Positions 9,701 through 64,000 of a stretch of 64,000 nucleotides of DNA are shown here, piece after piece; within the stretch, counting starts at the first letter, position 1; every line of letters starts with the position of its first letter. Origin of the DNA: Achatina immaculata (taxonomy: Eukaryota > Mollusca > Gastropoda > Stylommatophora > Achatinidae); NCBI GenBank assembly GCA_009760885.1, contig CM019693.1:50423853-50487852 (forward strand), written 5' to 3'. Below the pieces are notes generated by a model. The model ran no database searches. It saw nothing but the letters and a program-made list of their open reading frames with translations, and was not told the DNA's origin. A program made the translations under genes and the position numbers.

Positions 9701-9711
9701 CCTGGCCAGTT

Positions 9712-11464: not shown

Positions 11465-11475
11465 CCTGGCCAGTT

Positions 11476-12120: not shown

Positions 12121-14197
12121 TGTCATGAAGGCATGTAGGGGATTATGTCTATATTTATGTGTCATGAAGACATGTAAGGGATTTTTTGTCTATATTTTGT
12201 GTGTCATGAAGACATGTAGGGGGTTTTTTGTCTATATTTTTTGTGTCATGAAGGCATGTATGTGATTTTTGTCTATTTTTCTTTTCTCATGAAGACATGT
12301 AGGGGATTTTTTGTCTATATTTTTTGTATCATGAAAGCATGTAGGGGATTATGTCTATATTTTGTGTGTCAGGAAGGCATGTAGGGGATTTTGTCTATAT
12401 TTTTTTGTGTCATGAAGGCATGTAGGGGATTATGTCTATATTTTTTGTATCATGAAGGCATGTAGGGGATTATGTCTATATTTTGTGTGTCAGGAAGGCA
12501 TGTAGGGGATTTTGTCTATATTTTTTGTGTCATGAAGACATGTAGAGGATTTTGTGTATATTTTTTGTGTCATGAAGACATGTAAGGGATTTTTTGTCTA
12601 TAAATTTGTGTGTCATGAAGGCATGTAGGGGATTTTGTCTATATTTTGTCATGATGGCATGTAGGGGATTTTGTCTATATCTTTTGTGTCATGAAGGCAT
12701 GTACTGGATTTTGTCTATATTTTATGTGTCATGAAGGCATGTACTGGATTTTGTCTATATTTTATGTGTCATGAAGGCATGTAGGGGATTTTGTCTATAT
12801 TTTTTGTGTCATGAAGGCATGTAGGGGATTTTGTCTATATTTTATGTGTCATGAAGGCATGTAGGGGATTTTGTCTATATTTTTTGTGTCAGGAAGGCAT
12901 GTAGGGGATTTTGTCTATATTTTTTTTGTCAAAAAGGCATGTAGGGGATTTTGTCTATATTTTTTGTGTCATGAAGGCATGTAGGGGATTTTGTCTATAT
13001 TTTATGTGTCAAGAAGGCATGTAGGGGATTTTGTCTATATTTTTTGTGTCATGAAGGCATGTAGGAGATTTTGTCTATATTTTTTGTGTCAGGAAGGCAT
13101 GTAGGGGATTTTGTCTATATTTTTTTGTCAAAAAGGCATGTAGGGGATTTTGTCTATATTTTTTGTGTCATGAAGGCATGTACTAGATTTTGTCTATATT
13201 TTATGTGTCAGGAAGGCATGTACTAGATTTTCTCTATATTTTATGTATCATGAAGGCATATAGGGGATTTTGTCTATATTTTTGTGTCATGAATGCATGT
13301 ACTGGATTTTGTCTATATTTTATGTATCATGAAGGCATGTAGGGGATTTTGTCTATATTTTTTGTGTCATGAATGCATGTACTGGATTTTGTTATTTTTT
13401 TGTGTCAGGAAGGCATGTAGGGGATTTTGTCTATTTTTTGTGTCATGAAGGCATGTAGGGGATTTTGTCTATATTTTTGTGTCATGAATGCATGTACTGG
13501 ATTTTGTCTATATTTTATGTATCATGAAGGCATGTAGGGGATTTTGTCTATATTTTTTGTGTCATGAATGCATGTACTGGATTTTGTTTATTTTTTTGTG
13601 TCAGGAAGGCATGTAGGGGATTTTGTCTATATTTTTTGTGTCATGAAGGCATGTAGGGGATTTTGTCTATATTTTATGTGTCAGGAAGGCATGTACTAGA
13701 TTTTCTCTATATTTTATGTATCATGAAGGCATATAGGGGATTTTGTCTATATTTTTGTGTCATGAATGCATGTACTGGATTTTGTCTATATTTTATGTAT
13801 CATGAAGGCATGTAGGGGATTTTGTCTATATTTTTTATGTCATGAATGCATGTACTGGATTTTGTTTATTTTTTTGTGTCAGGAAGGCATGTAGGGGATT
13901 TTGTCTATATTTTTTGTGTCATGAAGGCATGTAGGGGATTTTGTCTATATTTTTTGTGTCATGAAGGCATGTAGGGGATTTTGTCTATTTTTTTGTGTGT
14001 CATGAATGCATGTACTGGATTTTGTCTGTATTTTTTGTGTCATGAAGGCATGTATGGGATTTTGTCTATATTTTATGTGTCAGGAAATCATGTAGGGGAT
14101 TATGTCTATATTTTTTGTGTCATGAAGGCATGTTGGGGATTATGTCTATATTTTTTGTGTCATGAAGGCATGTAGGGGATTTTGTCTATATTTTTCT
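12121..14197. repeat. 40-bp minisatellite, about 52 copies
   Basis: The unit contains ATGAAGGCATGTAGGGGATT, TTGTCTATAT and a T-run then GTGTC. Variant blocks (ATGAATGCATGTACTGG alternating with ATGAAGGCATGTAGGGG) recur with a multi-unit spacing near 13260-13900, suggesting higher-order amplification. It lies in the presumed intron 5' of cysteine-rich exon B. Confidence 0.96.
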
Positions 14198-14385
14198 TGA
14201 CCTTGTGACACACCAGAGTATGACGTGATCGGCATCACCCCTGACCACTGACCCTCAGAAGAGCCAGGTACTTATTTCTAGACCCGGGTGAATGGGGCGA
14301 CACCTGCCGGATTCGAACAACAATTCTTTGCACGATGCTAGTGGACTAACCACTTCACCACTCTTAAGCCGACTCTACAGTAAAG
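14198..14385 (-). mobile_element. tRNA-derived SINE-like element, copy 1
   Basis: On the minus strand, a polymerase III A-box-like TGGTGAAGTGG (14350-14360) is followed about 31 nt later by a B-box GTTCGAATCC (14309-14318), then a GC-rich body through 14264 and probably to about 14205. The spacing fits a tRNA head; no complete tRNA cloverleaf is evident. Copy 2 at 16057-16178 retains only the head. Confidence 0.65.
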
Positions 14386-15048
14386 TACACAAAATGGTGT
14401 AAATTTTGATAAATACGTCTACTCAAAACCTTGTCATGATGTGTCAGGAAACCGAGGAGACAATGGCTTAATCAACAGCAACAAAAATTTCTAACCTTTG
14501 ACTGAAAACTTTACTGAAAAAAAAATGTAATAGTTGGATGTTGGTTTTTGGATGTTGATCTTTGGATGTTGGATGTCAGTCTTCTCAGAAAAGTAACAAT
14601 CAAGGCGTGTTATGTTTTCTCATGTCTGGATATCAGACCAGCAACATCATCAGCAGCCAGCTCACTGAGAATACATGAGCTGTCACGTGGTCTGAAGCAT
14701 GTGATGTCATAATATCAAAGGGAAACAAGAAAATACTAGAGACACGTGGAGTATTTATATTTGTGTATTCGGCGCAATAACAGTTAAATGAGAATATTCG
14801 TTTTGGATAAAAAAAAATCGAATATTAAGATTTCGAATATTAATACATAAAGTCGGGATTGCAGGTGACGTATATATTTTATATATTCAAAAATATATAC
14901 ATTCGCTCAAAACAGCGATAAAGCCATTCATGGAATAACATAGGCCTGAAATTTGTGACGTCTCTATGAGACTCCCACTACTCTTTGAGATGTTGGTTTT
15001 AACCGCACGGCAAGATTGAATGTGTTGTAACAATAGGATGCCCTAATA

Positions 15049-16040
15049 CAGGGTGTTCGGGAAGTTCCTTGGCAATAGCGTAGTATCGATTCAGGTATCG
15101 CAGTGTTTACGATATCTAAGTTAAGCACCTGTATACACTGACCATGTGTGCTGATGAGAAAAAATAATATGTAATATGGGTTAATGAGGCATTTACCTGA
15201 TCTAATATTTTCAAAGCGGTCTCATTGAACGTCCAAATATGCTTGTACATGTTTAGCGATGTTTTTGTACGTAAGCATTTATTACAGTTTGTAATTCATT
15301 AAGCGTGCGTGGATGATCACAATACACTGTAGATTTTGCTCCCCCAACAGATAAAAGTCTGTTGGATCTGGCGACCGAGGAGGCGAGAAGTTCCTGGAGA
15401 TGATATGCTCTCCGAAAAATTCGCCCAGAAGTTTCATAGCTCTAGCAGCTGTGTACACAGTAGCGCCATTTTGCTGGAACCAAGCAGTTCAACAAAATCG
15501 TGGAGTACTGAACAACTGCGTTTACTATCAACGGTTTCTTCAAAGAATATAGGACCAAGAATGCGTCGTCTGGATATTGCAACACACACTCCAACTTTCT
15601 GATTGTGCAAGGGCATTTCATGCACAGTGTGAGGATTGTTGGATGACTACAAGCGTGAGTTTTGTGAATTAAAGCCATGGAGGTGGGACCAGACCCCATC
15701 TGTAAAAAACCTGACATCCAGAATATCGACTGCTTTCGTTTAAATAAAAGGTTTAAACCGTTCACGTTAGCTGATTCGTTGCTGATTTTATCCGCCGGCT
15801 GCAGCTGTTGCACTGCTGTTAACTTATGTAGGAAGAATTTCAAAGTTTCCCAGACCGCATTATGTGCAGCTGCAAGCTCGATACCTTCCTCTTGTGCCAG
15901 CTTGCGCAATTATTTTGATGAACTCCGAAGAAACGAGGCAGAAATATTCGATACTTTCTCATCACTAACTAGCGGTAGTCTCCCACTACGCTGAGCATCT
16001 AACACCGGTTCTGTTTCACGAAATTATTCTCGTTAAGACC
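15049..16040 (-). pseudogene. Tc1/mariner-superfamily DDE transposase remnant, copy 1
   Basis: A terminal sequence CAGGGTGTTCGGGAAGTTCC follows a TA at 15047-15048. On the minus strand the decayed ORF runs from about 15990 to the stop at 15116. It reads RSGRLPLVSDEKVSNISASF, RKLAQEEGIELAAAHNAVWE (helix-turn-helix region), LTAVQQLQPADK, a degraded F-S-D-E-A-type first catalytic block, VCVAISRRRILGP, FFEETVDSKRSCSVLHDFVE, then a deletion, and C-terminal TFNETALKILDQ. The family is recognisable from VQQLQPADK, FFEETV and the C-terminal SPDLNPTDF block kept in copy 2. Frameshifts and deletions make it non-functional; the opposite terminus is missing. Confidence 0.78.
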
Positions 16041-16056
16041 ATGTGCTGCAGTGCGA

Positions 16057-16178
16057 CCAGGTACTTATTTCTAGACCCGGGTGAATGGGGCGACACCTGC
16101 CGGATTCGAACAACAATTCTTTGCACGATGCTAGTGGACTAACCACTTCACCACTCTTAAGCCGACTCTACAGTAAAG
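16057..16178 (-). mobile_element. tRNA-derived SINE-like element, copy 2 (head only)
   Basis: Same A-box and B-box as 14264-14385, carried by the tandem duplication and truncated at the duplication junction. Confidence 0.62.
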
Positions 16179-16841
16179 TACACAAAATGGTGTAAATTTT
16201 GATAAATACGTCTACTCAAAACCTTGTCATGATGTGTCAGGAAACCGAGGAGACAATGGCTTAATCAACAGCAACAAAAATTTCTAACCTTTGACTGAAA
16301 ACTCTACTGAAAAAAAAATGTAATAGTTGGATGTTGGTTTTTGGATGTTGATCTTTGGATGTTGGATGTCAGTCTTCTCAGAAAAGTAACAATCAAGGCG
16401 TGTTATGTTTTCTCATGTCTGGATATCAGACCAGCAACATCATCAGCAGCCAGCTCACTGAGAATACATGAGCTGTCACGTGGTCTGAAGCATGTGATGT
16501 CATAATATCAAAGGGAAACAAGAAAATACTAGAGACACGTGGAGTATTTATATTTGTGTATTCGGCGCAATAACAGTTAAATGAGAATATTCGTTTTGGA
16601 TAAAAAAAAATCGAATATTAAGATTTCGAATATTAATACATAAAGTCGGGATTGCAGGTGACGTATATATTTTATATATTCAAAAATATATACATTCGCT
16701 CAAAACAGCGATAAAGCCATTCATGGAATAACATAGGCCTGAAATTTGTGACGTCTCTATGAGACTCCCACTACTCTTTGAGATGTTGGTTTTAACCGCA
16801 CGGCAAGATTGAATGTGTTGTAACAATAGGATGCCCTAATA

Positions 16842-17876
16842 CAGGGTGTTCGGGAAGTTCCTTGGCAATAGCGTAGTATCGATTCAGGTATCGCAGTGTT
16901 TACGATATCTAAGTTAAGCACCTGTATACACTGACCATGTGTGCTGATGAGAAAAAATAATATGTAATATGGGTTAATGAGGCATTTACCTGATCTAATA
17001 TTTTCAAAGCGGTCTCATTGAACGTCCAAATATGCTTGTACATGTTTAGCGATGTTTTTGTACGTAAGCATTTATTACAGTTTGTAATTCATTAAGCGTG
17101 CGTGGATGATCACAATACACTGTAGATTTTGCTCCCCCAACAGATAAAAGTCTGTTGGATTTAGATCTGGCGACCGAGGAGGCGAGAAGTTCCTGGAGAT
17201 GATATGCTCTCCGAAAAATTCGCCCAGAAGTTTCATAGCTCTAGCAGCTGTGTACACAGTAGCGCCATTTTGCTGGAACCATGAGTAATTGATCTCGTCA
17301 TCTTCAAGCAGTTCAACAAAATCGTGGAGTACTGAACAACTGCGTTTACTATCAACGGTTTCTTCAAAGAATATAGGACAAGAATGCGTCGTCTGGATAT
17401 TGCAACACACACTCCAACTTTCTGATTGTGCAAGGGCATTTCATGCACAGTGTGAGGATTGTTGGATGACTACAAGCGTGAGTTTTGTGAATTAAAGCCA
17501 TGGAGGTGGGACCAGACCCCATCTGTAAAAAACCTGACATCCAGAATATCGACTGCTTTCGTTTAAATAAAAGGTTTAAACCGTTCACGTTAGCTGATTC
17601 GTTGCTGATTTTATCCGCCGGCTGCAGCTGTTGCACTGCTGTTAACTTATGTAGGAAGAATTTCAAAGTTTCCCAGACCGCATTATGTGCAGCTGCAAGC
17701 TCGATACCTTCCTCTTGTGCCAGCTTGCGCAATTATTTTGATGAACTCCGAAGAAACGAGGCAGAAATATTCGATACTTTCTCATCACTAACTAGCGGTA
17801 GCCTCCCACTACGCTGAGCATCTAACACCGGCTGTTTCAAGAAATTTCTCGTTAAGACCATGTGCTGCAGTGCGAC
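16842..17876 (-). pseudogene. Tc1/mariner-superfamily DDE transposase remnant, copy 2
   Basis: The same element as copy 1, with 25 bp more. It preserves LLEDDEINYSWFQQNGAT, MKLLGEFFGEHIISRNFSPP and SPDLNPTDFYLLG. The family normally has WFQQDGA; here the second catalytic Asp is replaced by Asn, and frameshifts remain, so it is inactive. The terminal CAGGGTGTTC is at 16842. Confidence 0.8.
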
Positions 17877-17911
17877 CAGGTACGGGTATTCTTGTGAATT
17901 ATTTTAGTCAA

Positions 17912-26371: not shown

Positions 26372-27030
26372 GCACTGTTAGATTTTAACATCAGAAGTAC
26401 GTACACTACAATGGTAGGTTTTAACATCAGATATACATACACTACATTGTTAGATTTTAACTTGAGATATATATACAACGTTAGATTTTAACGTCTGAAG
26501 TACGTACACTACAATGGTAGGTTTTAACCTCAGACATACATACACTACAGTGTTAGATTTGAACATCAGAAGGACGTAAACTACACTATTGAGTTTTAAC
26601 GTCAGACGTAATGCATTGCAGTATTAGATTTTAACGTCAGATATACATACACTGTTAGATTTTAACATCAGATATACATACACTACAGTGTTAGATTTTA
26701 ACATCAAATATAAATACACTACAGTGTTAGATTTTAACATCAGATATACATACACTACAGTGTTAGATTTTAACATCAAATATAAATACACTACAGTGTT
26801 AGATTTTAACATCAGATATACATACAATACAGTGTTAGATTTTAACATCAGATATAAATACACTACAGTGTTAGATTTTAACATCAGTTATAAATACACT
26901 ACAGTATTAGATTTTAACATCATATACACATACGCGGCAGTGTTAGATTTTAACGTCAGACGCACATACATACACTACAGTGTAGTTTTAATGTCATTAG
27001 TACATATATATAGACCACACTGCGAGGTTG
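26372..27030. repeat. 36-bp minisatellite, segment 1
   Basis: The unit contains TTAGATTTTAACATCAGATA and TACATACACTACAGTG. A mariner element is inserted at its right edge, and the array resumes at 28930 (duplicated part) and 31581. Confidence 0.95.
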
Positions 27031-27035
27031 TAACG

Positions 27036-27660
27036 AGGGCCGGTCAGAAAGTAATGCACTACATCGTTTTTATTTTTCAGCTAATACTGAAGAAAGGAGC
27101 GTGAAATTTTACACACTATAAATATGGCATGTGCCGATTGTGTGAACCGGCAGAAGAATGTGGCTGACATACCGTTGAAATGGAGCGTGTTAGCAAGTTG
27201 CGGTATAAGCAGCGAATTGTGATAGAATTTCTCATTGCAGAGAATGAAACCGTTGTGAACATTCACAAGCGTCTATGTGATGTGTATCGAAATTTTGCAG
27301 TCGACAGTAGTACAGTCAGTCGCTGGGTTCAAAGAATCAAAGAATCAATAAGTGGAGATAAGGAGTTGCGTGATCGGCCGCGCTGTGGACGTCCTGCCAC
27401 AGCCACCATGGCAAGAAATGTTGAAATGCGCTGAGGGCGTATCATTACTCAACACCTGCTTTTAAAGTTGTCAGTCAGCGATGCTAGTACAACTGCAGTT
27501 ATAAAAGCTCTCAGATTTTCTAAGGTTTGAGCAAGGTGGGTTCCGCGAAGCTCACAAATGAACATCGATTACAAAGGAAAGCAATGTCTTCTGAACTGTT
27601 GGAGCGTTTCAGTGCTGAGGGAGAGAACTTTTTGCCTATGATCGTAACAAGTGGCGATTC
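27036..27660 (+). pseudogene. Mariner transposase 5' part, copy 1
   Basis: A terminal sequence with GGTCAGAAAGTAATGCACTA (from 27042) is followed by an ATG at 27180 and an N-terminal mariner reading: ERVSKLRYKQRIVIEFLIAE, VNIHKRLCDVY, SSTVSRWVQRIK, DRPRCGRPATAT (paired helix-turn-helix region with GRP linker). Stops and a deletion follow; MSSELLERFSAEGENFL is still legible near 27570-27640. The frame breaks at 27661 where a foreign GC-rich block begins. It has no 3' terminus of its own. Confidence 0.85.
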
Positions 27661-28929
27661 TAAGGACTGTTATAGCCGGAGGTGATGTGGGGGGATACGC
27701 TTTCCACTCCAATTAAATGTCTCCAAGGCATGCGTCTCAAGTAGCCTCTGAAAATCCAGGTCCAGCTCCTGGCCTTCTCGTGTCGGAACTGTTTAAACTG
27801 ACAGGAGAAGGGGCGGAAGGCGAATATCTAGCGCCTGAAAACCAGACGCCTTGGGTAGATGAGATTCATGTTTGGTAGCTCATCTAGGAGAAGGAAAAAA
27901 CCCACTGTTGGCGAGATTCTTCAGCTGTCGTGCGTGGGGGGAAACTCCTCCCTGCCAATGAAGAAAAATGCAACTAGGGTTGCTCCCGGCCCCGCCGTAG
28001 AAAAGGTGAAGGAAAGGATTAAGTGAAGTAATCAGTAGTCTCGAGGTCAGGACTACTCAAATCACGGCACCTCTGCTCTAGAGGCTGGCCACGTCTTATA
28101 TACACCCATACTGGGGCAGATTGCCTAAACCAGCTTAACCCAGGGGTTAAACTAAGACATTGCTGACGAGATTCTTCGGCTGCCGCGCGTGTGGTGAAGC
28201 TCCTCGTGGCCAATGAACAAAATGTGAAAATGCGATTAGGGTTTTCCGGCGCTGCCGCTGTGGAAAAGGTGATGGAAAGGATAAAGCTTAATCGATATGT
28301 CCAGTAATCTCGCGGAGAAAGCTACTCATACCAAGGCAGCTCTGCTCTAGAGGCCGGCCACGTCCTATATACACCCATACTGGTGAAATATGCCTAAACC
28401 GGCTGAACCCAGGGATGAAACTTTATGACTTCTCATGTCACGGTACCTCCGCTCTAGAGGTCGGTCACATCCTAAATACGCGCATGCTGAGATAATTCAC
28501 CTAAACCGGCTCTACCCAGGGGTGGAAGTCACTAGTGGCGAGGATTCGTCCTCCTGGGCAAAAGCTCCGTCCTGGTCACAACTAGAAAGAGTAGCGGCCA
28601 CGACCACAAAATGCAGAAGTCGGAGACACTGGACCAGGGAGTCTAAATAGGCAGCCACCTCTCACCCGGCGGGGATGTATGCCTATCCTAACCATGCTGA
28701 AGTTTTCCAATGAGAAAGTCCAACGCTGGACTGGATGGACAACCACCTCTCACCTAGCGGGGATATACTGATATCCAAAACTCGTCGAGGTTTTCCGGTG
28801 AGAAAGTCCAACTCTAGATTAAACTGGTGCAAAGAAAACCACAGTGCCACGCAATCCCGCTTCTGAGACCCACTAGAATACAGGCCCAAGCCCCGCGATA
28901 CTCTGAACCTCTTGTGGTCCTCTCAGGGA
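27661..28929. mobile_element. 1.27-kb GC-rich insertion inside mariner, copy 1
   Basis: Base composition is clearly richer in G+C than the surroundings. It contains internal direct repeats: about 255 bp twice (from 27907 and 28158; each with CTCTGCTCTAGAGG and ATATACACCCATACTGG), a third partial copy near 28430, and an 85-bp repeat near 28650-28815. There is no convincing ORF. It resembles the repetitive untranslated leader of a retrotransposon, but I cannot assign it to a family. Confidence 0.6.
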
Positions 28930-29175
28930 TACACTACAGTGTTAGATTTTAACATCAGATATACATACAATACAGTGTTAGATTTTAACATCAGATATAA
29001 ATACACTACAGTGTTAGATTTTAACATCAGTTATAAATACACTACAGTATTAGATTTTAACATCATATACACATACGCGGCAGTGTTAGATTTTAACGTC
29101 AGACGCACATACATACACTACAGTGTAGTTTTAATGTCGTTAGTACATATATATAGACTACACTGCGAGGTTGTA
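28930..29175. repeat. 36-bp minisatellite, duplicated segment
   Basis: Copy of the 26787-27030 part of the array, created by the 2.15-kb duplication. Confidence 0.93.
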
Positions 29176-31580
29176 ACGAGGGGCCGGTCAGAAAGTAATG
29201 CACTACATCGTTTTTATTTTTCAGCTGATACTGAAGAAAGAAGCGTGAAATTTTACACACTATAAATATGGCATGTGCCGATTGTGTGAACCGGCAGAAG
29301 AATGTGGCTGACATACCGTTGAAATGGAGCGTGTTAGCAAGTTGCGGTATAAGCAGCGAATTGTGATAGAATTTCTCGTTGCAGAGAATGAAACCGTTGT
29401 GAACATTCACAAGCGTCATGTGATGTGTATCGAAATTTTGCAGTCGACAGTAGTACAGTCAGTCGCTGGGTTCAGAGAATCAAAGAATCAATGTGGAGAT
29501 AAGGAGTTGCATGATCGGCCGCGCTGTGGACGTCCTGCCACAGCCACCATGGCAAGAAATGTTGAAATGCGCTGAGGGCGTTATTCTTACTGATAGGCGT
29601 ATCATTACTCAACACCTGCTTTTAAAGTTGTCAGTCAGCGATGCTAGTACAACTGCAGTTATAAAAGCTCTCAGATTTTCTAAGGTTTGAGCAAGGTGGG
29701 TTCCGCGAAGCTCACAAATGAACATCGATTACAAAGGAAAGCAATGTCTTCTGAACTGTTGGAGCGTTTCAGTGCTGAGGGAGAGAACTTTTTGCCTATG
29801 ATCGTAACAAGTGGCGATTCTAAGGACTGTTATAGCCGGAGGTGATGTGGGGGGATACGCTTTCCACTCCAATTAAATGTCTCCAAGGCATGCGTCTCAA
29901 GTAGCCTCTGAAAATCCAGGTCCAGCTCCTGGCCTTCTCGTGTCGGAACTGTTTAAACTGACAGGAGAAGGGGCGGAAGGCGAATATCTAGCGCCTGAAA
30001 ACCAGACGCCTTGGGTAGATGAGATTCATGTTTGGTAGCTCATCTAGGAGAAGGAAAAAACCCACTGTTGGCGAGATTCTTCAGCTGTCGTGCGTGGCGG
30101 AAACTCCTCCCTGCCAATGAAGAAAAATGCAACTAGGGTTGCTCCCGGCCCCGCCGTAGAAAAGGTGAAGGAAAGGATTAAGTGAAGTAATCAGTAGTCT
30201 CGAGATCAGGACTACTCAAATCACGGCACCTCTGCTCTAGAGGCCGGCCACGTCTTATATACACCCATACTGGGGCAGATTGCCTAAACCGGCTTAACCC
30301 AGGGGTTAAATTAAGACATTGCTGACGAGATTCTTCGGCTGCCGCGCGTGTGGTGAAGCTCCTCCTGGCCAATGAACAAAATGTGAAAATGCGATTAGGG
30401 TTTTCCGGCGCTGCCGCTGTGGAAAAGGTGATGGAAAGGATAAAGCTTAATCGATATGTCCAGTAATCTCGTGGAGAAAGCTACTCATACCAAGGCAGCT
30501 CTGCTCTAGAGGCCGGCCACGTCCTATATACACCCATACTGGTGAAATATGCCTAAACCGGCTGAACCCAGGGATGAAACTTTATGACTTCTCATGTCAC
30601 GGTACCTCCGCTCTAGAGGTCGGTCACATCCTAAATACGCGCATGCTGAGATAATACACCTAAACCGGCTCTACCCAGGGGTGGAAGTCACTAGTGGCGA
30701 GGATTCGTCCTCCTGGGCAAAAGCTCCGTCCTGGTCACAACTAGAAAGAGTAGCGGCCACGACCACAAAATGCTGAAGTCGGAGACACTGGACCAGGGAG
30801 TCTAGATAGGCAGCCACCTCTCACCCGGCGGGGATGTATGCCTATCCTAACCATGCTGAGGTTTTCCAATGAGAAAGTCCAACGCTGGACTGGATGGACA
30901 ACCACCTCTCACCTAGCGGGGATATACTGATATCCAAAACTCGTCGAGGTTTTCCGGTGAGAAAGTACAAATCTAGATTAAACTGGTGCAAAGAAAACCA
31001 CAGTGCCACGCAATCCCGCTTCTGAGACCCACTAGAATACAGGCCCAAGCCCCGCGATACTCTGAACCTCTTGTGGTCCTCTCAGGGATCGCGTGTGGTT
31101 CTCTCTCTTCAGCGTTGAAGGTGTGATTCTTGTATATGTTATGCCAAGAGGAGAGACAATCAATTCGCAAGCTTACATTAAGACACTGAAAAAACTCAAT
31201 GTGAGCCCTCACACAAGTCTGGCAGCACGGGAAGCAATCACCAAATTGGGTTGGACTGTAGTACCCCATCCACCTTGTAGTCCCGATTTGACACCCTCTG
31301 ATTTCCATCGGTCCACTTAAAGTTGCACTCCAAGGGGTAAGATTTAAAGATGACGAAGGAGTGTTTCATGCAGCGAAGAAATGGCTACATAATCAAGAGA
31401 AAATCTGGTACGGGCTATGAATACATGCACTTTGTTTCGCGCTGGCGTAAAGCCGTACAGGTTTATGGGGATTATGTTGAATAATATCGATGTTTACATG
31501 AAATATTCAAGTATTTTGTGTATACATTTCAGGCTCCTGGGAAAAACGTTGTAGTGCATTACTTTCTGAACGTCCCTCGT
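29176..31580 (+). mobile_element. Mariner element with both terminal inverted repeats, interrupted
   Basis: The left terminus 29176-29206 (ACGAGGGGCCGGTCAGAAAG then TAATGCACTAC) matches in reverse complement the right terminus 31551-31580 (GTAGTGCATTACTTTCTGAA then CGTCCCTCGT). TA dinucleotides lie near both ends. The transposase starts at ATG 29324 and is frameshifted from about 29417. The 3' part, after the insertion, encodes GVILVYVMPRGETINSQAY, SLAAREAITKLGWTVVPHPP and CSPDLTPSDFH, the C-terminal mariner block. The middle of the catalytic domain, including the expected HDNARPH-type block, is missing. Confidence 0.88.
29821..31089. mobile_element. 1.27-kb GC-rich insertion inside mariner, copy 2
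   Basis: Near-identical to 27661-28929. Here its right edge runs into the mariner 3' part, showing the ancestral arrangement before the tandem duplication. Confidence 0.6.
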
Positions 31581-32849: not shown

Positions 32850-35800
32850 GAAGTGACTCGGGTAAAACTGGAGCGACCAACTCCAAATCAGAGCGTAAAA
32901 GGTAGCAGATGGTGAAAGTCCTCCAGATATGGAGGATCCCTGTGAATAAGGATTTACTCAAATAAGCAGGCGCGGACCAACTGGCGGTAGACTCAGAGAG
33001 CGAGGTGGGGTAGTAGGTGCCTCTACTAAAGTGCCTCAGGTGCTCAGTGTGAAGGGAATACCAGGCGGGTAAGAGGCACCTTAAAACCTCTCGCTCCCGC
33101 TGCCTTGCGGGTAGAACAGGGAGTCCAAAGACTAGCGGAGAGTCCGTACACAAACCGACATAAGGTAACACGAAACCACTGTTGTAGCTCCCAAGAACAA
33201 TTATGCTTATTCAGAGTCATAGATTTATCATGAACGAAGTTAATGGATGTTCCTCTGGAACAGCCTCGTCCGGTAGGGCAGCTCACGAGCCACAGGTGAG
33301 GCCAGATCGTCATCAAGCTACTGCTGGCAAAACTAACAAGTTCAAAATAGCAACATGGAATGTTAGAACTTTATTCCAGGCTGGAAAATTAGAAAATATA
33401 AAGAGGGAAATGGAAAGGATGAAGATCAGCATATTAGGAATGAGTGAAGTTAGATGGACAGGTGCAGGGAAGATAAACTCTGATAAATATACAATAATAT
33501 ATTCAGGAAGTGAGAAACATGAACGAGGAGTAGGAATAATATTTGACGAACAAACGGCAAGGACGATTGTAGGATATTTGAACATCTCGGAAGGAGTCCC
33601 GCTAGCCCAACTGAAAAGACGACCAATGAACATAAATATTATACAAGTGTACGCTCCAACATCTGAAAGTTCTGAAGAAGATTACAGCTATTTTATAATG
33701 ACATAGAGACAGCCCTGAAACACACAAAATCACATGAAGTTACTACAGTCATGGGAGATTTTAATGCCAAAGTTGGTAAAGGAAGAACTTCGGACATCGT
33801 TGGTGACTATGGACTGGGGGAGAGGAATGACAGAGGTTATAAATTAATTGAATGGGCAAGAATACACAGCATGGTTGTAGGAAACACCTGGTTTAAACAA
33901 CATCCCCAAAGACTGGCAACGTGGTGTAGCCCAGACAAAAAGACTTGTAATCAGACAGACTATGTATTAATCAACAAACGATTCCGGAATGCATTAATGA
34001 CAACAAAAACCATGCCAGGAGCCGACTGCAATAGTGACCATGACCCACTCTGTGGAAAAATTAGAATAAAACTAAAGAAAGCATGCAGAAAAGATAGAAA
34101 CATCAAACTGAATATAGAACTCCTTAAAAATGACTAAGAACTGAGAGAACAATACAAAGTTATCATAACAAATAGATACAATGCAATAGCAAAGATAAAT
34201 AGTATAGATGAACAATGGGAAATGTTAAGAGATTCTATCCACCAAACTGTTAAGGAGATAATACCACCGAAAAAAGAAGTCCCTAAAAATAAATGGATGA
34301 CAGACGACATCTTAGGGCTGATGGACAAGAGGAGGTGGAGTAAAAATAACGAGGAAAAATATAGCAAGATAAATAAAGAAATAAGACGCAAATGCAGAGA
34401 AGCAAAAGAAATGTGGTTAAAAGAACAGTGCAGACAGATAGAGGACTCTCATAATAAAGACAGCAAAAACATGCACAAACGAATTAATGAACTCACAGGC
34501 AGGAACACAAAATATACCACAGGATGCCTGAAATCAAAAGAAGGTAAAATGTTAATGGGAAAAGAAGACATTGTGGACAGGTGGACAGAGTATATCGGTG
34601 AGCTATATGGAGGAGAAAGACCAGAATTAACACCAGATACTGAAAACTGTGAGGGACCACCAATACTTGAAGATGAAATCATAGATGCCATCAATCACAT
34701 GAAGAAAGGAAAAGCGACTGGGCCTGATAATATAACAAAAGAAGAAATAGAGGCACTAGAGGAGACAGGAATAAAAATAATAACCAAGTTACTGAATGAC
34801 ATTTACAACAGTGGTTATATTCCCAGTGACCTGATTAAATCCACGTTTATAGCACTACCAAAGAAACCAGGTGCAAAGGAATGTGACGACCACAGGACTA
34901 TCAGCCTCTCATGTCACATAACGAAGCTACTTCTGAGAATAATTATGAGAAGAACAAGGAAAAAGATCAAAATGGAAATAGCAGATGAACAGTTTGGATT
35001 TGTTGAAGGAAAGGGAACACACAATGCCATTTATGCTTTACGAACACTAACAGAAAGAGCTTTAGAAGTACAGAAAGATCTCTACTTATGCTTCATTCAT
35101 TACACCAAGGCATTTGACAAGGTGAAACATAATGAAATTATTAAAATGTTTGAAGACATCAATATAGACGGCAAAGACCTGAAGATTGTAAAACATCTAT
35201 ACTGGCAGCAAGAAGCAGCAGTTCGAGTTGAAAATAGGATTGGAAAATATCAACCTATAAAACAAGGGGTGCGACAAGGATGTGTACTATCTCCAGACCT
35301 TTTTTCTCTGTACAGCGTGAATATTATAAGAACGATCATTACAGAACCAGGCATAAAAATTGGAGGATACAATATTAACAACCTTTGATATGCTGACGAC
35401 ACAGTACTGATAGCTGAGAACCAACAAGACTTGCAAAGTCTCTTGGATAAAGTGGCCAAAGAAAGTGAACAGAAAGGCTTTACTTTGAACATCAAAAAGA
35501 CAGAGACTATGGTAATATCTAAGAAACAGAATCCACCAGCATGCAGTATTAAATTAAACGGAACTATTCTAAAGCAGGTGCAGAAATTCAAATACCTTGG
35601 AGCAGTAATAACTTCAGATGGGAAATGCAGAACAGAAATTAGGAACAGAATAGGCCAAGCAAAGACTGCATTTCAGAGAATGAGAAACATATTAGCTAAC
35701 ACATCTTTATCAATGAATGTTAGAAAACGAGTCCTAAAATGCTATATTGAACCTATCTTGTTATATGGAAGTGAATCATGGACAATAGGCAAGTCTGCAC

Positions 35801-51379: not shown

Positions 51380-51756
51380 TTCAAGAAATTAAAACATAAA
51401 ATATAAAACACTAAAACAAGACCAGAAATCATGTGGCATCTCATTACAAGACATTCTACATAAAATACTAATACAAGACAATAAATGAGACAACATCTCA
51501 CTACAAGACATTCTGTATAAAACACTACTACAAGACAAGAAATGAGGCAGAAAATCACTACAAGAAATTCTATAAAAATCACTGATACAAGACAAGAAAT
51601 GATGTGGCATCTCACTACAAGACAGTCGAAATAAAACACTAATAAAAGACAAGAAATAAAGCGGAATATCACTATACGACATTCTGCATAAAACACTAAT
51701 ACAAGAAAGGAAGGGGGCAGCATCTCACTACAAGACATTCTACATAAAATACTACT
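51380..51756. repeat. 57-60-bp minisatellite, segment 1
   Basis: Units with ACTAATACAAGACAAGAAAT and CATCTCACTACAAGACATTC. It continues at 53074 after an RTE-B insertion. Confidence 0.93.
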
Positions 51757-53073
51757 CATTCATTGATTCATTTGCATGTCCCTTGCGGAACTTTGCCTCC
51801 CAAACAGCACTCCTGTAGGCCTCTCGGTTGTGAGCAAGATGGCCTGCTGCTGTTGCATCCATTTCCAGATCGTCAACGATGTCTTGCAGCCATCTTCGTC
51901 TTGGTCTTCCTCTTTTTCTTTTTCCCATTATGTATCCTTCCAATACGGTCTTCTCTAAATTATCATGACGTTTAATGTGTCCAAAATATTTCAGTTTTCT
52001 CTCTTTAATCCTCCTCACTAGCCAGCCTTCTTCAATATTAAGCTCTTGTAGTATAGATATATTTGTTCTTTTTTGTGACCACGATATTTGGAGAACTCTT
52101 CTGTAGCATTTACATTCAAAGGCATTTATGTGTTTCTCAGCTGTTTTGTTAAGTGTCCAGGTCTCACAGGCATATGTTGCTATGGGAAAGATGCATGCCC
52201 TTAAAAATCTTATTTTTGTGGTTCTGTCTGCTCCTCTCCACAGATTCTTTATTTGTTTTACTTTCTGAAGAGCGATAGATGTCCTCCTTTTAATTTCCCT
52301 CATTGTATCTCCATTATTAGTTAGTAGTGATCCAAGATATTCAAAACTCTCCACTTCTTCCAGTTTTTCCTCATTGATACATATTTCAGTTGCCTTGGTT
52401 GTTTTGTCAGTTGTCATCAATTTAGTTTTCTTTGCATTAAGATAGAGGTTCTGCTCTTCGCTGGTCTTGCGGACTGACATAATTAGTTTTTCCATTCCTT
52501 TTTGTGTTGTGGACAGCAATACTGTGTCATCAGCATATCTAATCTCTGGTATTTCATAACCTCCAACTGTTATGGCATCGTAATATTCTTTGTCTACATC
52601 TTCTCTAACATTCCTCATTATATTTTCAGTATACACGTTAAATAAGTAGGGTGACAATATGCACCCCTGACGGACCCCTTGTTTTATGTCAAACCAAGTT
52701 GTTGTTTCACCATTTATTCTTACTGCTGCTTGTTGGTCTAGATACAGCAGTGATGTTAATTGTATCAAATGTGTTGGAAATCCCATTTTTTCCATTATTT
52801 CCCAAAGTTTCTGGTGTTGTACACAATCAAATGCCTTTGAGTAGTCTATAAAGGATAAATATAGATTCACATTAAACTCTCTGCATTTCTCTATTATTAA
52901 TCTTAGATTGAATATATGATCTCTTGATCCTCTTCCTTGCCTGAAACCAGCTTGGACCATACTGACTTCTTCTGTTTTCTTTCGAAGTCTACCCATTATG
53001 ATTTTTAACAGAATTTTACTGGCATGACTAATCAGGGCAACAGTTCTGTAGTTGGTGCATAATTTCAGGTTAC
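51757..53073 (-). mobile_element. RTE-B LINE, young 5'-truncated copy with intact RT reading frame
   Basis: On the minus strand one frame is open from the truncation point at 53073 to the stop at 51752-51754, about 440 codons. RT: NYRTVALISHASKILLKIIM, FIDYSKAFDCVQHQKLWEIM (motif A Asp intact), DIKQGVRQGCILSPYLFNVY, EIRYADDTVLLS (YADD intact), NAKKTKLMTTDKT. C-terminus: YACETWTLNKTAEKHI, LKYFGHIKRHDNLEK, RGRPRRRWLQDIVDDLEMDA, EAKFRKGHANESMNE. The endonuclease half is missing, so it cannot move alone. TAAAATACTACT flanks it at 51745-51756 and 53074-53085. It is the reference copy for RTE-B in this window. Confidence 0.94.
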
Positions 53074-54490
53074 TAAAATACTACTACAAGTCAAGAAATT
53101 AGGCGTCATCTCACTACAAGACATTCTATAAAAAATACTACTACAAGTCAAGAAATTAGGCGTCATCTCACTACAAGACATTCTATAAAAAATACTACTA
53201 CAAGTCAAGAAATTAGGCGTCATCTCACTACAAGACATTCTATAAAAAATACTACTACAAGACAAGAAATTAGGCGTCATCTCACTACAGGACATTCTCC
53301 ATAAAACACTACTACAAGACAAGAAATTAGGCGTCATCTCACTACAGGACATTCTATATAAAATACTACTACAAGACAAGAAATTAGGCGTCATTTCACT
53401 ACAGGACATTCTATATAAAATACTACTACAAGTCAAGAAATTAGGCGTCATTTCACTACAGGACATTCTATATAAAACACTACTACAAGACAAGAAATTA
53501 GGCGTCATCTCACTACAGGACATTCTATATAAAATACTACTACAAGACAAGAAATTAAGGCGTCATCTCACTATATGACATTCTCCATAAAACACTACTA
53601 CAAGACAAGAAATAAGGCGTCATCTCACTATAGGACATTCTCCATAAAACACTACTATAGGACAAGAAATAAGGCGTCATCTCACTACAGGACATTCTGC
53701 ATAAGACACTACTACAAGACAAAAATTGGGACAGCATCTCACTACATGACATTTTACATTAAACAATACTACAAGACAAGACATAAGGCGTCATCTCACT
53801 ACAAGACATTCTAGATAAATCACTAATACAAGACAAGAAATAAGGCAGCAAATAAGACATTCTACATAAAACAGTAATACACGTGAAGAAATCAAGAGGC
53901 ATCTAACTTCAAGACATACTACATAAAACACTAATTCAAGACAAGAAATAAAGAGGCATCTAACTTCAAGATTTTCTACAGAAAACTCTAATGAAAACAA
54001 CAAATGAGGCAGAATCTCACTATAAGACATTCTACATAAATCACTAATACAAATCAAGTAATGAGGCGGTTTCTCCGTACAAGACGTTAAACATAAAACA
54101 TTAATACAAGACAAGAAATGGGGCAGTGTCTCACTACAGGACATTCTGCATCAAATACTAATACAAGACAAGAAAAGAGGCAGCATCTCCTACAAGGCAT
54201 TCAATATAAAACACTAATAAAAGACAAGAAATCACGCGGCTTCTCACTTAAAGACATTCAACATAAAACATTAATAGAAGACAAAAAGACAGAATCTCCG
54301 AACAAATCTTTCCACATACAACACTATGATAAGATGAGACATCAGCCCGCATCTCACTACAGGACATTCTACATAAATCACTAACACAAGACAAGAAATC
54401 AGGAGTCAACTCATTACTAGACATTGTATGTAAAACACTAACACAAGACGAGACACCAGCACGTATCTCACTACCAAACATTCTATATAC
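53074..54490. repeat. 57-60-bp minisatellite, segment 2
   Basis: The left part has homogeneous 57-60-bp units (AAATACTACTACAAGACAAG, AAATTAGGCGTCATCTCACT); the right part from about 53700 is diverged, with indels. Confidence 0.95.
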
Positions 54491-59199: not shown

Positions 59200-59920
59200 C
59201 TTGTTAGTTCCATTCAACTGTAAAGCTTTATTCTGCGTGAGAAGCTCTATTAAATCTGTAAAGCTCTATTTAGCCTGTAAACCTTTATTCAATCTGTAGA
59301 GTTCTATGTTTGAGAAGATCTAGTCATATACTAGCAACATGGTAAGCTTCTATAGTTCTCCCATGTTTTGTTTAACCTCCCTTCCTGAAGACTGTCTCTC
59401 TTCTTCCCAGAACTGCTCCATCACTTTCATATTTCATCATACGCTTTTCTAAACTTATCAGCAGCTTCATCAGAGTCGCTAGTCTCGTTTTCTTTAGATT
59501 TCTTTGTGTAAATGTTCTATATAGTTCTTATGTGAGGTCTGTTGTTTTCTGTTTATTCTGTTGTTGTGGGAAAATACTAGATATCACCTGACAGTTTGTA
59601 TCTTTGTGTGAGAATATTAGGTGTCTCTTCACAGTTTGCATCCAAGCTTGTGGGAAGATACTGTCTTCTCATAGTTTGTGTCTCTGCTTGTTGATAATAC
59701 TTACTGTCTTCTTTCGTTGCGTGTGATGATTGTGTCTTTACTTGTAAAGATTGTCTCTACTTGTGAATATTGTTTCTCTACTTGTAAAGAATGTCTCTAC
59801 TTGTGAAGATTGTGTCTCTATTTGTGAAGATTGTGTCTGGTTCTGTAACATTTTGTTCAGGTACCGCTTTCAACGTATTTTATCATCTTTTATGATTGTA
59901 AAGATAATCAGACAAATGGA
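59200..59920. repeat. Degenerate short repeats
   Basis: Loose repeats of CTGTAAAGCTCTATT (59220-59310) and of CTACTTGTGAAGATTGTGTCT (59560-59850). Confidence 0.6.
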
Positions 59921-60221
59921 GCGAACAAATAATAAATAGAAAGACAAATAAAACAAACAAAGAATAAATTAACAGATAAATGAAAGTAACAAATAATGAA
60001 CAGATAGGTAAAACAAGCAACTAATAAATAAACAGAAAGATGAAGCACACAAATAATACATAAACAAATGAAATAAGCATGAAGAGATAAACAAACAGGT
60101 GAATGAAACAAAGATAAGTAGATATATGAAAATAATAATAATCAAATAATAAATAAATTAAACAAAAAATAACAAATAGAGAAAACAAACAAGTAACAAA
60201 TGGACAGATGAAACAAAAACA
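59921..60221. repeat. A-rich degenerate repeat, segment 1
   Basis: Repeats of AAACAAACAAATAATAAATA and CAGATAAATGAA. It resumes at 60414-60625 after an RTE-B fragment. Confidence 0.8.
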
Positions 60222-60413
60222 AAGTAGTCAGTCAATCATTTGTATATCCCTTGCGTAACTTTGCCTCCATAACAACTCTCCTGTATGCCTTTCGGTTGTG
60301 AGCAAGATGGCATGCTGCTCATGTATCTATTTGCAGATCATCAACGATGTTTTGCAGCCATCTTTGTCTTTGTCTTACTCTCCTTCTTTTTTCCATTATG
60401 TATCCTTCCAAGA
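60222..60413 (-). mobile_element. RTE-B LINE 3' fragment (diverged)
   Basis: The minus strand encodes LEGYIMEKRRRVRQRQRWLQ and NIVDDLQIDT, then NREAYRRVVMEAKLRKGYTN-like sequence and an AATGATTGACTGAC tail. More diverged than the other RTE-B copies. Confidence 0.82.
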
Positions 60414-60625
60414 TGGACAAACACAAATAAATGAACAAATATATGAATAAAACACGGATGAACAGTATATGAAACGAACAAATAACAGATAAATAAACAG
60501 ATGAAACATATAAGAGATAAATAAACAGATGAAACAAACAAGTAATAAATAAACAGACATATGAAACAAATAAGAGATAAATAGACAGACGAAACAAACG
60601 TGTAACAGACAACAAACAAATTAAA
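60414..60625. repeat. A-rich degenerate repeat, segment 2
   Basis: Continuation of 59921-60221 (AAACAGATGAAACAAACAAG and relatives). The unique block 60626-60837 downstream of the cysteine-rich exon stop contains ATTAAA on the minus strand near 60668, a possible polyadenylation signal. Confidence 0.8.
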
Positions 60626-60837
60626 CAAATGAACTTTTGGAAAGATTTCCAAGACTTGGAAAATGTTTTTAATTGTTTAAAAAATTGTGGTCCTGCTGTG
60701 ATGACACAGAACTGAGTACACCAAATGTGCTGCAGCAAAATGATGTACCCGGTGAGATTCGTTGACTTGAGCAGGCGTGACATATGCTGTCAGTGACGGG
60801 CACGAGTTTGTTCGAGCTGAACACAAGCTGCCAACTT

Positions 60838-61286
60838 TTAACCAAACAGGTTAGGTATTAAGAATGGGGCGGGGGTGGAGGCCTGCGATGTGCTGGCTGT
60901 CGCTGGAAGCTGCAATATGCCGAGAAAAAATGGCGGCGGAGTGTTGCTGGATGGTTGGTTTATCTGTGGTTGTACTTCTTGCGGGGTGGTGTTTACTGTG
61001 GTAGATGGTCCCTGAAGTAAAGTTACTGTAGATTCCACTGGGGTAGGTGGAGCAGCTGTACTGATACTGATTCCAGGGATAACCGTTGGTGTAGCAGGAG
61101 GAAGTAACTGGTTGATAGCACACTTTACTGTGCAGAACATGGACTTGCAGACAACAGACTGAACAGAGCACACGATACTCAGAACTGGGATAATCTCTGA
61201 GACACACTCATCTCTGGTGTTGTCACAGTCAGTCTGGCACGGGGTCAGACAGGTGCACTCTCTCACGCACTTGGGGGTACACAAGC
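60838..61286 (-). CDS. Terminal exon of cysteine-rich protein, paralogue C
   Basis: Minus strand: acceptor GGTTTCTTCACCCAG ends at 61287, then a 2-nt split codon and 148 residues to the stop at 60838. It reads LCTPKCVRECTCLTPC, QTDCDNTRDEC, IVCSVQSVVCKSMFC, TVKCAINQLLP, with the same eleven-cysteine spacing (3-3-1-3-3-6-11-6-4-3) as 9712-10157. A Pro/Thr/Ser-rich tail follows (PPATPTVIPG, STAAPPTPVESTVTLLQG), then FFLGILQLPATASTSQ and the end LIPNLFG. The apparent TTG-initiated start at 61284 is inside the exon and not a start codon. The strand, exon phase and length (449 versus 446 nt) match copies A and B. Upstream exons were not found in 61287-64000. A secreted or extracellular-matrix role is only inferred from cysteine density. 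Confidence 0.8.
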
Positions 61287-61306
61287 CTGGGTGAAGAAAC
61301 CGATGT

Positions 61307-61512
61307 ATTTTACAGACATGGCTTGTTTTAGTGTGGACATAACTAACAGTATTTGTCTAAAATAACGAGACATGGCTTGTTTCAGTGTGGACATAACTAA
61401 CAGTACTTGTCTAAAATAACAAGACATGGCGTGTTTCAGTGTGGAAATAACAAACAGTATTTGTCTAAAATAACGAGACATGGTTTGTTTTAGTGTGGAC
61501 ATAACTAACAGT
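61307..61512. repeat. 54-bp minisatellite, segment 1
   Basis: The unit contains AACAAGACATGGCTTGTTTC, AGTGTGGACATAACTAACAG and TACTTGTCTAAAAT. It lies in the intron immediately 5' of cysteine-rich exon C. Confidence 0.95.
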
Positions 61513-61946
61513 CATCATCATCATCATGTGCCGTGCCGACTGGCGTTGGCTATTATGCTTCTCCAGAGTACCCGATCCTTCATGCAGGCCATCAGTTCAG
61601 TTGGTGATCTCCTCTCACACCATCCCGTCAGACTGTCCAGTATCATTTCTCTTGGTCTTCCTCTTGATCTTCTTCCTTCTATTTTTCCTGTTGTTATAAT
61701 ATTTTCAATGCCCCCTCTTCTCATTGCATGTCCTATGAAAGTACATTGTCTCTCTCTTATCTTTTTGACAAGGTTTTTTTTTGGTCTCTCCAGCTCTTCT
61801 CATACATTCTTCATTAGTTATTTTTGCTGTCCAGGGGATTCGCAACATTCTTCTAATAAACCACATTTCTGCTGCTTCCAATGATTTTTGTGCAGACTTG
61901 CCTATTGTCCATGATTCACTTCCATATAACAAGATAGGTTCAATAA
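61513..61946 (-). mobile_element. RTE-A LINE 3' fragment with (ATG)n tail and 10-bp target duplication
   Basis: The minus strand reads IEPILLYGSESWTIGKSAQK, MWFIRRMLRIPWTAKITNEE, then after a frameshift RGRPREMILDSLTGWC and SIIANASRHGT. AACTAACAGT occurs at 61503-61512 and 61947-61956, splitting one unit of the 54-bp repeat. Confidence 0.92.
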
Positions 61947-61956
61947 AACTAACAGT

Positions 61957-62085
61957 GCTTGTCTAAAATAACAAGACATGGCTTGTTTCAGTGTGGCATA
62001 ACAAACAGTATTTGTCTAAAATAACAAGACATGGCTTGTTTCAGTGTGGACATAACTAACAGTACTTGTCTAAAATAACATAGGA
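61957..62085. repeat. 54-bp minisatellite, segment 2
   Basis: Continuation of 61307-61512 after the RTE-A insertion. The sequence at 62086-62500 is unique and unrecognised. Confidence 0.93.
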
Positions 62086-62500
62086 TAAATCTTTCCATAA
62101 ACGCTGACAGGAAAAAAGTGGATACTAAATTATGTAACAGAATAAGACAGATAAATGTTTTGGATAAGGGAAAAAGACTAGTGTCCCCTGCAGAGAGCTA
62201 ATTTTGAAAACTTATAGGCTTGCCCAGCAAGCGAATCAGTGTTGTGAAGTTTGCACGTATTAATACACTCTGTGAACGAATTGGAAGATACGCACAGTAA
62301 AAGGACAGACGTGAAAAAATAACAGCTAAGACCGGCAAGGAAAGAAATACGGAATCAAGCAAGTTCCTCCTTCAGAGTTTGTATATTTTAGTTAGGTTAT
62401 CGAAAATGTAGAGTTTTGGTTGTAGTCTCTGTCTCTTTGTTGGGAAATGAATAGAGTTGGTTAATCTGTCCCTTTTAGTACAGTTTTTTTATAGTTTTTA

Positions 62501-62773
62501 TGACCTCAGACCTGTCTCTTGAGCTTAACATGCAATATCAAACCTGTCTCTTGAGCTTAACACAAGATATAAAACCTGTCTCTTCAGTTTAATCACAAGA
62601 TATTAGATCTGTCTCTTGATCTTAATCACGAGATATCAAACCTGTCTATTGATCTTAATCACAAGATATTAGACCTGTCTCTTGATTTTAATCACAAGAT
62701 ATTAGACATGTCTCTTGATTTTAATCACAAGATATCAAACCTGTTTCTTGAGCTTAATCACAAGATATTAGAC

Positions 62774-62831
<58 letters not shown>

Positions 62832-62930
62832 CTTGATCTTAATCACAAGATATTAGACATGTCTCTTAAGCGTAATCATAAGTTGTCAGACGTGTCTCTT
62901 GAGCATAGTCACAAGATGAATATTCTCTAT
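62501..62930. repeat. 33-bp minisatellite with an embedded (CT)n(CTAT)n microsatellite
   Basis: The unit contains GACCTGTCTCTTGATCTTAA and TCACAAGATATTA. At 62774-62832 one unit is expanded into CT repeats then CTAT repeats, growing from the internal CTCT/CTAT words. Confidence 0.93.
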
Positions 62931-63910
62931 TAATTTATGGTAACTGAGATAGTGTAGTAGTATATTAGAATAGGCACAGAGTGATCGGGAAAATCCTATC
63001 CTCTGGTTGTCGCTGGGTTAAAAAAAAAAGCACCGTGCGGCCCTTAACTAACAGACGACTTGATTACCAGACGACTTTAGGAGAGAGGAGAATTATGGAA
63101 AGAAACGGTTAGGACAGAGATGATAGAAGTTTTGATCAGAGTAGAAGTTTTTATGATAGGACTGTGATCAGTGTGAAACTATGTAGAACAGCTTGAATGA
63201 TTTAGTCTGGTCAGCTTGACCAAGATGTTTGTGCTAGCTGTCATGGTACTACTGTCGAGATTTATTAGGACCAGTGGTTCTAAAAGTATGTCTGTGACTT
63301 TTGTGGAAATTCAGTGGCATGTTCATGACATTCAGTAAGTTTTACTTTTGTTATCATGTTGTTAGATTGCTGTTTGTCTGGGCGTGAATGTAGATCACTC
63401 ACTTCCCATATGGCAAACTTCTGTCTTGCTGGGTATGGAGCCTAACTGTACTTACTGTTTAACATTCTTCACCTCATGTCACTTATCATTAATACTCATT
63501 AATAAAACTTTTTTGTACTTCACATCTTGTCAAATCATTACACGATGTTATCTGTATTTTTGTCTCAGAAATGTCAGAGGTTCTCATACTGTGCTGCTGT
63601 GATCTAAGATGGAGCTGTGTGCCTGGGTGTGATCGTTTCTCTGTGTATATCAAAGAAACAGTTGCTTATACTATCAGATTCAACAGTCAGATGGACTATA
63701 ACTTACTCCACTTAAACTTATAAAGCAGTAGCACACACAATCTCGCTAACTTGTCACCACTTAAAAATAGTGATACTACTTCAATGTAGAATTTCAGTCT
63801 TCGATTTCACCTTTATAAGCAGAATATTCCCATTTCACTTTACATTTTTTTTGTATGCTTGTACTCAATCAAACAATGCGGGGTGCTGGGGAGGGGGGTG
63901 TTAGAAAATC
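62931..63910. other. Unique sequence without a supported gene
   Basis: Two hAT-terminus-like words lie on the plus strand, at 63272-63290 (CAGTGGTTCTAAAAGTATG) and 63575-63593 (CAGAGGTTCTCATACTGTG). A short hydrophobic start (MFVLAVMVLL) follows an ATG at 63225, without further coding support. A 72-codon frame at 63384-63602 is unrecognised. Confidence 0.3.
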
Positions 63911-64000
63911 AGCTTTTGTAGGCGCTACTTCGTGGAGTTTTATATTGTCTCTTCTATGATGGAAGACACTTTTGTAAGCGCTACTTCATGGAGTGTTATA
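63911..64000. repeat. Start of a 56-bp tandem repeat cut by the window end
   Basis: CTTTTGTAGGCGCTACTTCG at 63913 and its near copy at 63969 are 56 bp apart. Confidence 0.7.

Follow-up and report, generated by a model that had tools for sequence, protein, structure and literature searches.

A clustered family of cysteine-rich coding exons in the genome of Achatina immaculata

Exons A, B and C and their surroundings

The window analyzed here is a stretch of 64,000 nucleotides (positions 50423853-50487852 of contig C11) that carries three terminal coding exons on its minus strand. Exon C occupies 60838-61286 and measures 449 nt with its stop codon, while exon B (11476-11921) and its almost identical tandem duplicate, exon A (9712-10157), each measure 446 nt. 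All three are stop-free on translation and contain a domain with eleven cysteines, which in exon C takes up about 58 codons (61114-61286, minus strand) and precedes a tail rich in proline, serine and threonine that ends in NLFG. The domain of exon B is likewise followed by a tail, which includes 2.9 copies of a 54-bp (18-residue) unit and ends in GLFG. An AG acceptor lies immediately 5' of each exon and leaves a 2-nt split codon (phase 1), at 61287-61288 for exon C (CACCCAG/GC TTG TGT, with the slash at the splice site), at 11922-11923 for exon B (TGTTCCAG/GA ATC TGC) and at 10158-10159 for exon A, all on the minus strand. The gaps between successive cysteines (3, 3, 1, 3, 3, 6, 11, 6, 4 and 3 residues) are identical in the three exons. 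A reading of the window made from its sequence alone had reported the places of the exons, the eleven identically spaced cysteines, the shared acceptor phase and the nearly equal lengths, all of which were recovered on translation. The Leu-Phe-Gly C-terminus that it also reported stands for A, B and C, each of which ends in LFG and a stop, and fails for the other copies described below, which end in LLG, VNV, PCT or a hydrophobic stretch.

Exons A and B belong to adjoining units of a 1.77-kb tandem duplication, the unit with exon A at 8730-10498 and the unit with exon B at 10495-12263, which are 99.7% identical. Because both lie in this one recent duplication, they are not independent and count as a single witness; the idea that the three exons give three separate lines of evidence was rejected. 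Exon C matches exon A by tblastn at E 8.9e-25 with 38% identity across the exon, in agreement with the earlier statement that most other residues differ between A/B and C. A match of this strength excludes chance similarity, which was rejected as the origin of the likeness on this E-value together with the conservation of the cysteines in 14 copies. When nucleotides 59501-64000 of the window are compared with 8701-10500, the top match (158 bp, 66% identity, E 1e-6) starts at the acceptor and lies inside the exon, and the next-best match has an E-value of 0.007.

Other features of the window include retrotransposon open frames at 51752-53080 (minus strand), 34138-35388 (plus strand) and 33676-34137 (plus strand), with matches to the RVT_1 reverse transcriptase at E 1.6e-37 and 4e-20 and an endonuclease match below the cut-off. 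Minisatellites are very dense throughout, with 71 tandem-repeat rows scoring at least 150 (overlapping rows counted) and arrays of up to 3.5 kb. Two further head-to-tail duplications, each about 98% identical, are located at 14264-16064 / 16057-17883 (about 1.8 kb) and 26786-28930 / 28929-31089 (about 2.1 kb). Like the A/B unit, they reflect either frequent recent tandem duplication in this region or a repetition of stretches by the assembly.

The family in the genome and its cysteine domain

The genome (1.65 Gb in 145 contigs) was searched with exons C and B and with two further copies, S3 and L32a, as queries, using an E-value limit of 0.001 for C and of 1 for the others, and all counts are lower bounds. 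The four queries combined identify at least 15 family sites (at least 14 with C, 15 with B, 12 with S3 and 13 with L32a), all located within 0.82 Mb at 49.71-50.53 Mb of contig C11. Beyond A, B and C, the same contig thus holds at least 12 further exon copies, one of which lacks its 5' part. Every match with an E-value below 0.001 falls inside this one cluster. Matches elsewhere have E-values of at least 0.07 and mainly cover the tail, and the sole match covering the domain (E 0.88) contains internal stops. A repeat locus at C3:64897399-64901949 shows 51-54% identity to the exon B tail over about 60-75 residues (E 0.07-0.6), which is probably a low-complexity resemblance.

Along contig C11 the copies follow in the order S1+, S2+, S3+, S4+, L6-, L31+, L7-, L8+, L4-, L5-, A-, B-, C-, L32b- and L32a-, where the signs give the strand, L4 to L8 denote the copies in loci L004 to L008 (L8 also lies in L030), L31 is the copy in L031, and L32a and L32b are both in L032. 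A whole, open eleven-cysteine domain stands behind an acceptor at 14 of the 15 sites, and 13 of these 14 copies run on in their own frame to a stop; the remaining site, L7, is without the acceptor and the first four cysteines. In all 14 whole-domain copies, a phase-1 acceptor [CT]AG directly precedes the same codon. A candidate poly(A) signal (AATAAA or ATTAAA) is present less than 1 kb from the stop in each of the 11 copies examined (all but L5, L8 and L32b of the 14), which is weak evidence in DNA this rich in A and T.

In three tandem duplications the repeated unit is the terminal exon with little flanking DNA: the 1.77-kb A/B unit, L4/L5 (about 1.1 kb) and L32a/b, for which 829 bp align at an offset of 1.74 kb in the stretch fetched. 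Within the flanks fetched, copy L6 has no more than 529 bp in common with L4 and with L5, about 517 kb away, and this common stretch covers the exon. Between loci L006 and L004 it consists of the exon with about 80 bp upstream and about 50 bp downstream at 96-98% identity, a pattern as if only the exon had moved or undergone conversion. In a phylogenetic tree, A and B group with C (85/85), L4 to L6 form a set (91/88), and stars mark the L32a/b and S3/S4 groups; the deeper branching is weak, and the program issued a long-branch warning.

The domain comprises about 56-58 residues at the N-terminal end of the exon, and its eleven cysteines span about 54 of them. Across the 14 whole-domain copies, 153 of 154 cysteine positions are kept, the single loss being the ninth cysteine of S1, and both TGT and TGC are in use at all eleven cysteine columns. 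At the other columns the mean pairwise identity is 29.8% (601 of 2016 comparisons among 10 of the 14 copies, with B, L5, L6 and L32b left out). Two alignments were used, A4 with 13 rows (without L5) and A3 with 12 rows (without B and L5); L7 is in neither, its 5' part being missing. Two CxxxCxxxC triplets (C3-C7-C11 and C13-C17-C21) open the domain in all 14 copies, and the exact spacing of the window exons recurs in 8 of the 14. The 11-residue gap is shorter by one residue in S3, while L4, L5, L6 and L31 each carry one additional cysteine with the remaining spacing undisturbed. Since these four copies have twelve cysteines and one copy has ten, not every member has an odd cysteine to spare. 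A structure model of the domain, predicted from exons A to C, was unusable (pLDDT 45.5, pTM 0.27).

Between A and C, the NG86 estimate of dN/dS is 0.28, at a dS of 1.33 that is near saturation, and the differences by codon position number 16, 20 and 32 at first, second and third positions, of 62 each (Fisher p 0.004). Point estimates for close pairs are 1.32 for S1/S2, 1.01 for S3/S4, 0.84 for S2/L8, 0.78 for S1/L31, 0.77 for S1/L8, 0.43 for L8/L31 and 0.39 for S2/L31; the values within S1/S2/L8/L31 and for S3/S4 may reflect diversifying or relaxed selection. Cysteines that are kept while their codons vary silently, in a domain otherwise about 30% identical, support selection on the cysteine framework, as far as can be judged from the letters of the copies. 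The purifying selection on a disulfide framework proposed earlier is thereby upheld, as is the proposal that these exons are real coding sequence, for which the open frames, the kept cysteines and the acceptor position and phase common to all 14 copies speak. The clustered family can be regarded as real and coding with good sequence support.

The tails differ widely in length, from 44 residues in S3 to more than 700 in L8, and share a bias in composition, with serine, threonine and proline making up 31-64% in all 14 copies and charged residues 2-8%, except for 16-17% in L32a/b. Eight tails were scanned for arrays; long in-frame ones occur in the tails of A, S2 and L8, and those of C, S1, L31, L4 and L32a have none or units shorter than 10 bp. 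The main in-frame arrays have periods of 54 bp (A and B), 39 bp (S2) and 93 bp (L8), all three divisible by three; across the window such periods occur in 44 of 121 repeat rows, a background in which overlapping rows and the A and B arrays are counted. The exons also contain short sub-repeats with periods of 6-12 bp, including two rows of 11. The 93-bp repeat tail of L8 (locus L030 from 5825) contains 39 copies in the open frame and continues in another frame after about residue 800, a change that may be real or an assembly error. In copies L4, L5 and L6 and in the fragment L7, the C-terminus consists of a hydrophobic stretch and, after it, a few polar residues; in L4 the hydrophobic stretch has a mean KD value of 2.75 over 15 residues, and the ends of L5, L6 and L7 are nearly identical to it. 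By its composition, this end may be anchor-like, resembling a lipid-anchor signal or a membrane span.

Searches for relatives and for a leader exon

Pfam gives no match for exons A to C, and for 13 domains of the family it gives only insignificant ones, to FAM101 (E 0.077, one member), C_tripleX (E 0.41, two members) and EGF_PEAR1L (E 7.4, one member). No relative was found in the PDB by sequence or profile search. In a collection of 5.8 billion genome and metagenome proteins, no significant relative occurs among the candidates scored, which numbered 31 for exon C (E 10) and 7991 for the family alignment (E 1) in a search that needs shared 5-residue words. None of 24 stretches with the cysteine pattern in viral contigs was confirmed by the family alignment, and none of 287 stretches in bacterial and archaeal contigs was confirmed with exon C. 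Of six stretches compared with the exon B domain by tblastn, one viral stretch (L033, E 2e-4) passed and was rejected, being without the cysteine spacing. The available parts of the open-licence literature yielded no family with this spacing. The statement in the sequence-only reading that no named family fits therefore holds at the level of significance for Pfam, the PDB and the scored candidates of the large protein collection, and the profile search it proposed, run with the alignment of the cysteine domain, gives no significant match in any of the three. Judged against Pfam, the PDB and genome and metagenome proteins, rather than against animal protein databases, the family is likely undescribed.

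A signal-peptide exon upstream had also been expected. We looked for exons that open with an ATG and a hydrophobic segment and close at a phase-1 donor, and compared upstream stretches in translation, covering 30-71 kb for each of S1 to S4, 49 kb for B, 12.7 kb for C, 15.8 kb for L5 and 0.5-10 kb for the others. In these stretches no such exon is common to the family, and only weak candidates are present, at L31 and L4/L5, where leader-like open frames in the right phase lie 87-88 bp 5' of the acceptor. In a control, 1.2% of 4000 random AG sites have such a frame less than 100 bp away, by criteria set post hoc. The L31 candidate corresponds to a block (L031:338-413, about 90-165 bp 5' of the acceptor) that in L31, where it begins with ATG, can be read in phase 1 as a hydrophobic leader. 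The same holds for L8, where the block begins with ATC and the frame stays open to a phase-1 donor, G/GTACAG, but S1 to S4 give no such leader in that frame. Among the blocks aligned to it in S1, S2, S3, S4 and L8, none has an ATG and four of the five have an in-frame stop, while the differences between the L8 and L31 blocks fall without bias on the three codon positions (8, 7 and 9). Copy L6 is without the L4/L5 candidate despite an almost identical exon. Both candidates are thus best treated as weak leads, which their relatives do not bear out, and not as exons. The A/B and L32 units were found to contain no leader exon of good quality. A candidate upstream of S1, S3 and S4 was rejected as a dispersed multi-copy element, which we take from its appearance to be hAT-like. 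The local DNA is rich in retrotransposons and minisatellites, and a short leader exon could be hidden or displaced as a result.

Possible nature of the products

The most likely explanation, which has about an even chance of being correct, is that A, B and C are the 3'-terminal coding exons of a clustered family whose products are secreted or surface-bound, disulfide-framed structural proteins. A 5' exon would provide the signal peptide, and the extracellular location of the products is accordingly a presumption. The domain would fold with up to five internal disulfides, and in copies with an odd number of cysteines the remaining one could link chains. The tail would act as an O-glycosylated, flexible and weakly sticky or weakly hydrophobic spacer, a low-complexity segment rich in serine, threonine and proline that has grown in some copies by in-frame repeat units. 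The products would then be extracellular building blocks of mucus, a capsule, a cuticle or an adhesive layer, with the subgroup bearing a hydrophobic end staying at the cell surface.

The dN/dS values of 0.39-1.32 in S1/S2/L8/L31 and of 1.01 in S3/S4 indicate rapid change for a structural protein and would fit decay. They also bear on a possible, if rather doubtful, alternative, a rapidly evolving family of recognition or effector proteins, of an immune, reproductive or toxin-like kind, with a fixed cysteine scaffold, a diversifying surface and variety generated by tandem copying. The presence of copies on both strands of the array, an identity of 30% at the non-cysteine columns, three recent tandem duplications, an anchor-like end in one subgroup and close-copy point estimates of dN/dS of up to 1.32 are in line with such a family, whereas other close pairs stand at 0.39 (S2/L31) and 0.43 (L8/L31) and A/C at 0.28, again as point estimates. 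A repeat tail as long as that of L8 is atypical of small effectors, and no significant Pfam match points to a defence or toxin family. If instead many copies were dying or dead exon fragments spread by duplication, with few live genes among them, then the fragment L7 without its acceptor and first four cysteines, the missing cysteine of S1, the departure of the L8 repeat tail from its first frame near residue 800, the relatives of the L31 leader-like block without ATG and mostly with a stop, and the values of dN/dS near 1 in some close pairs would be expected. This is very improbable for a family in which the domain is open behind an acceptor at 14 of 15 sites, 13 copies are closed by a stop in their own frame and 153 of 154 cysteines are kept through silent codon changes.

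The layout of the cluster raises another alternative, by which neighboring copies on the same strand are alternative terminal exons spliced to one common 5' exon, so that one gene would yield varied cysteine domains and tails. The three tandem duplications that repeat the terminal exon with short flanks would suit this arrangement, as would the mere 529 bp, covering the exon, that L6 shares with L4 and L5 at a distance of about 517 kb, the same phase in all copies and the lack of a good leader in the A/B and L32 units, although that lack counts for little as evidence when a short exon is sought among so many repeats. Because copies sit on both strands, one common 5' exon cannot serve them all, and the leader candidates that the L4/L5 unit and L31 hold for themselves make the arrangement less likely; overall it is unlikely. 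A distinctly unlikely variant is a lineage-restricted family whose terminal exons are exchangeable cassettes, each with a fixed eleven-cysteine head, a free repeat tail and sometimes an anchor, alternatively spliced to shared leader exons to give extracellular linkers that vary in length and anchoring.

The proposed structural role can be set beside known systems. Secreted gel-forming mucins carry S/T/P-rich stretches of variable length beside cysteine-rich parts and have VWD, C8, TIL and cystine-knot domains. The present exons are similar in placing a variable-length tail with 31-64% serine, threonine and proline beside a cysteine-rich domain, but those read (A to C and the 13 domains) have no significant Pfam match to a mucin-associated domain.

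Among the nematode APPG (abu/pqn) pharyngeal cuticle proteins, as described in the available passages of PMC4232772, a C_tripleX repeat (Pfam PF02363, CxxxCxxxC) is found, 27 of 29 proteins have predicted signal sequences, and comparable disulfide cross-linking is suggested by the authors. The snail family shares with that description the CxxxCxxxC triplets and the paralogous grouping, and departs from it in having a single eleven-cysteine block in fixed register with second-half gaps of 6, 11, 6, 4 and 3; C_tripleX is matched in two of 13 members, at E 0.41 at best. Cnidarian minicollagens, according to the part of PMC4863159 available, have cysteine-rich domains of the form CX3CX3CX3CX3CC through which chains are joined by intermolecular disulfides. 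Both have a short domain of CX3C steps at a chain end; unlike the minicollagen domain as given there, the present one has no CC pair, an x1 step in its middle and eleven cysteines instead of six. No collagen Gly-X-Y stretch was seen by eye in the tails. In outline, the proposed action of a cysteine head that can link chains and a tail that serves as spacer would resemble that of minicollagen domains and the one suggested for APPG proteins; the family belongs to neither.

For the sea urchin SpTransformer (Sp185/333) genes, the available text of PMC5940198 describes exon 1 as the leader and one exon as the whole variable mature protein. Compared by description only, and with that text in part, the two may be alike as multigene families with a one-exon variable part, here a large exon that in 14 copies follows the common phase-1 acceptor; here, unlike there, no family-wide leader exon was found and the cysteine framework is constant. 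The Achatina atrial protein CRASP is, in the passages available from PMC4596865, cysteine-rich, secreted, without known relatives and equipped with a low-complexity region, with ten cysteines over 158 residues and an ENTH/VHS fold in the authors' model. By that partial description it is set apart from the present family, which has eleven cysteines in about 54 residues.

A gene family that is invisible to curated domain libraries is thus revealed by one genome, through a pattern in which the cysteines are frozen, nearly all else drifts and some tails expand through minisatellites that stay in frame. Should the exons be alternative ones, their arrangement would be an unusual layout for generating diversity in extracellular proteins. 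If the secreted cross-linking role is true, nature would have provided, in these copies, one linking domain joined to tails of 44 to more than 700 residues, a series useful for learning how tail length sets the properties of mucus or adhesive.
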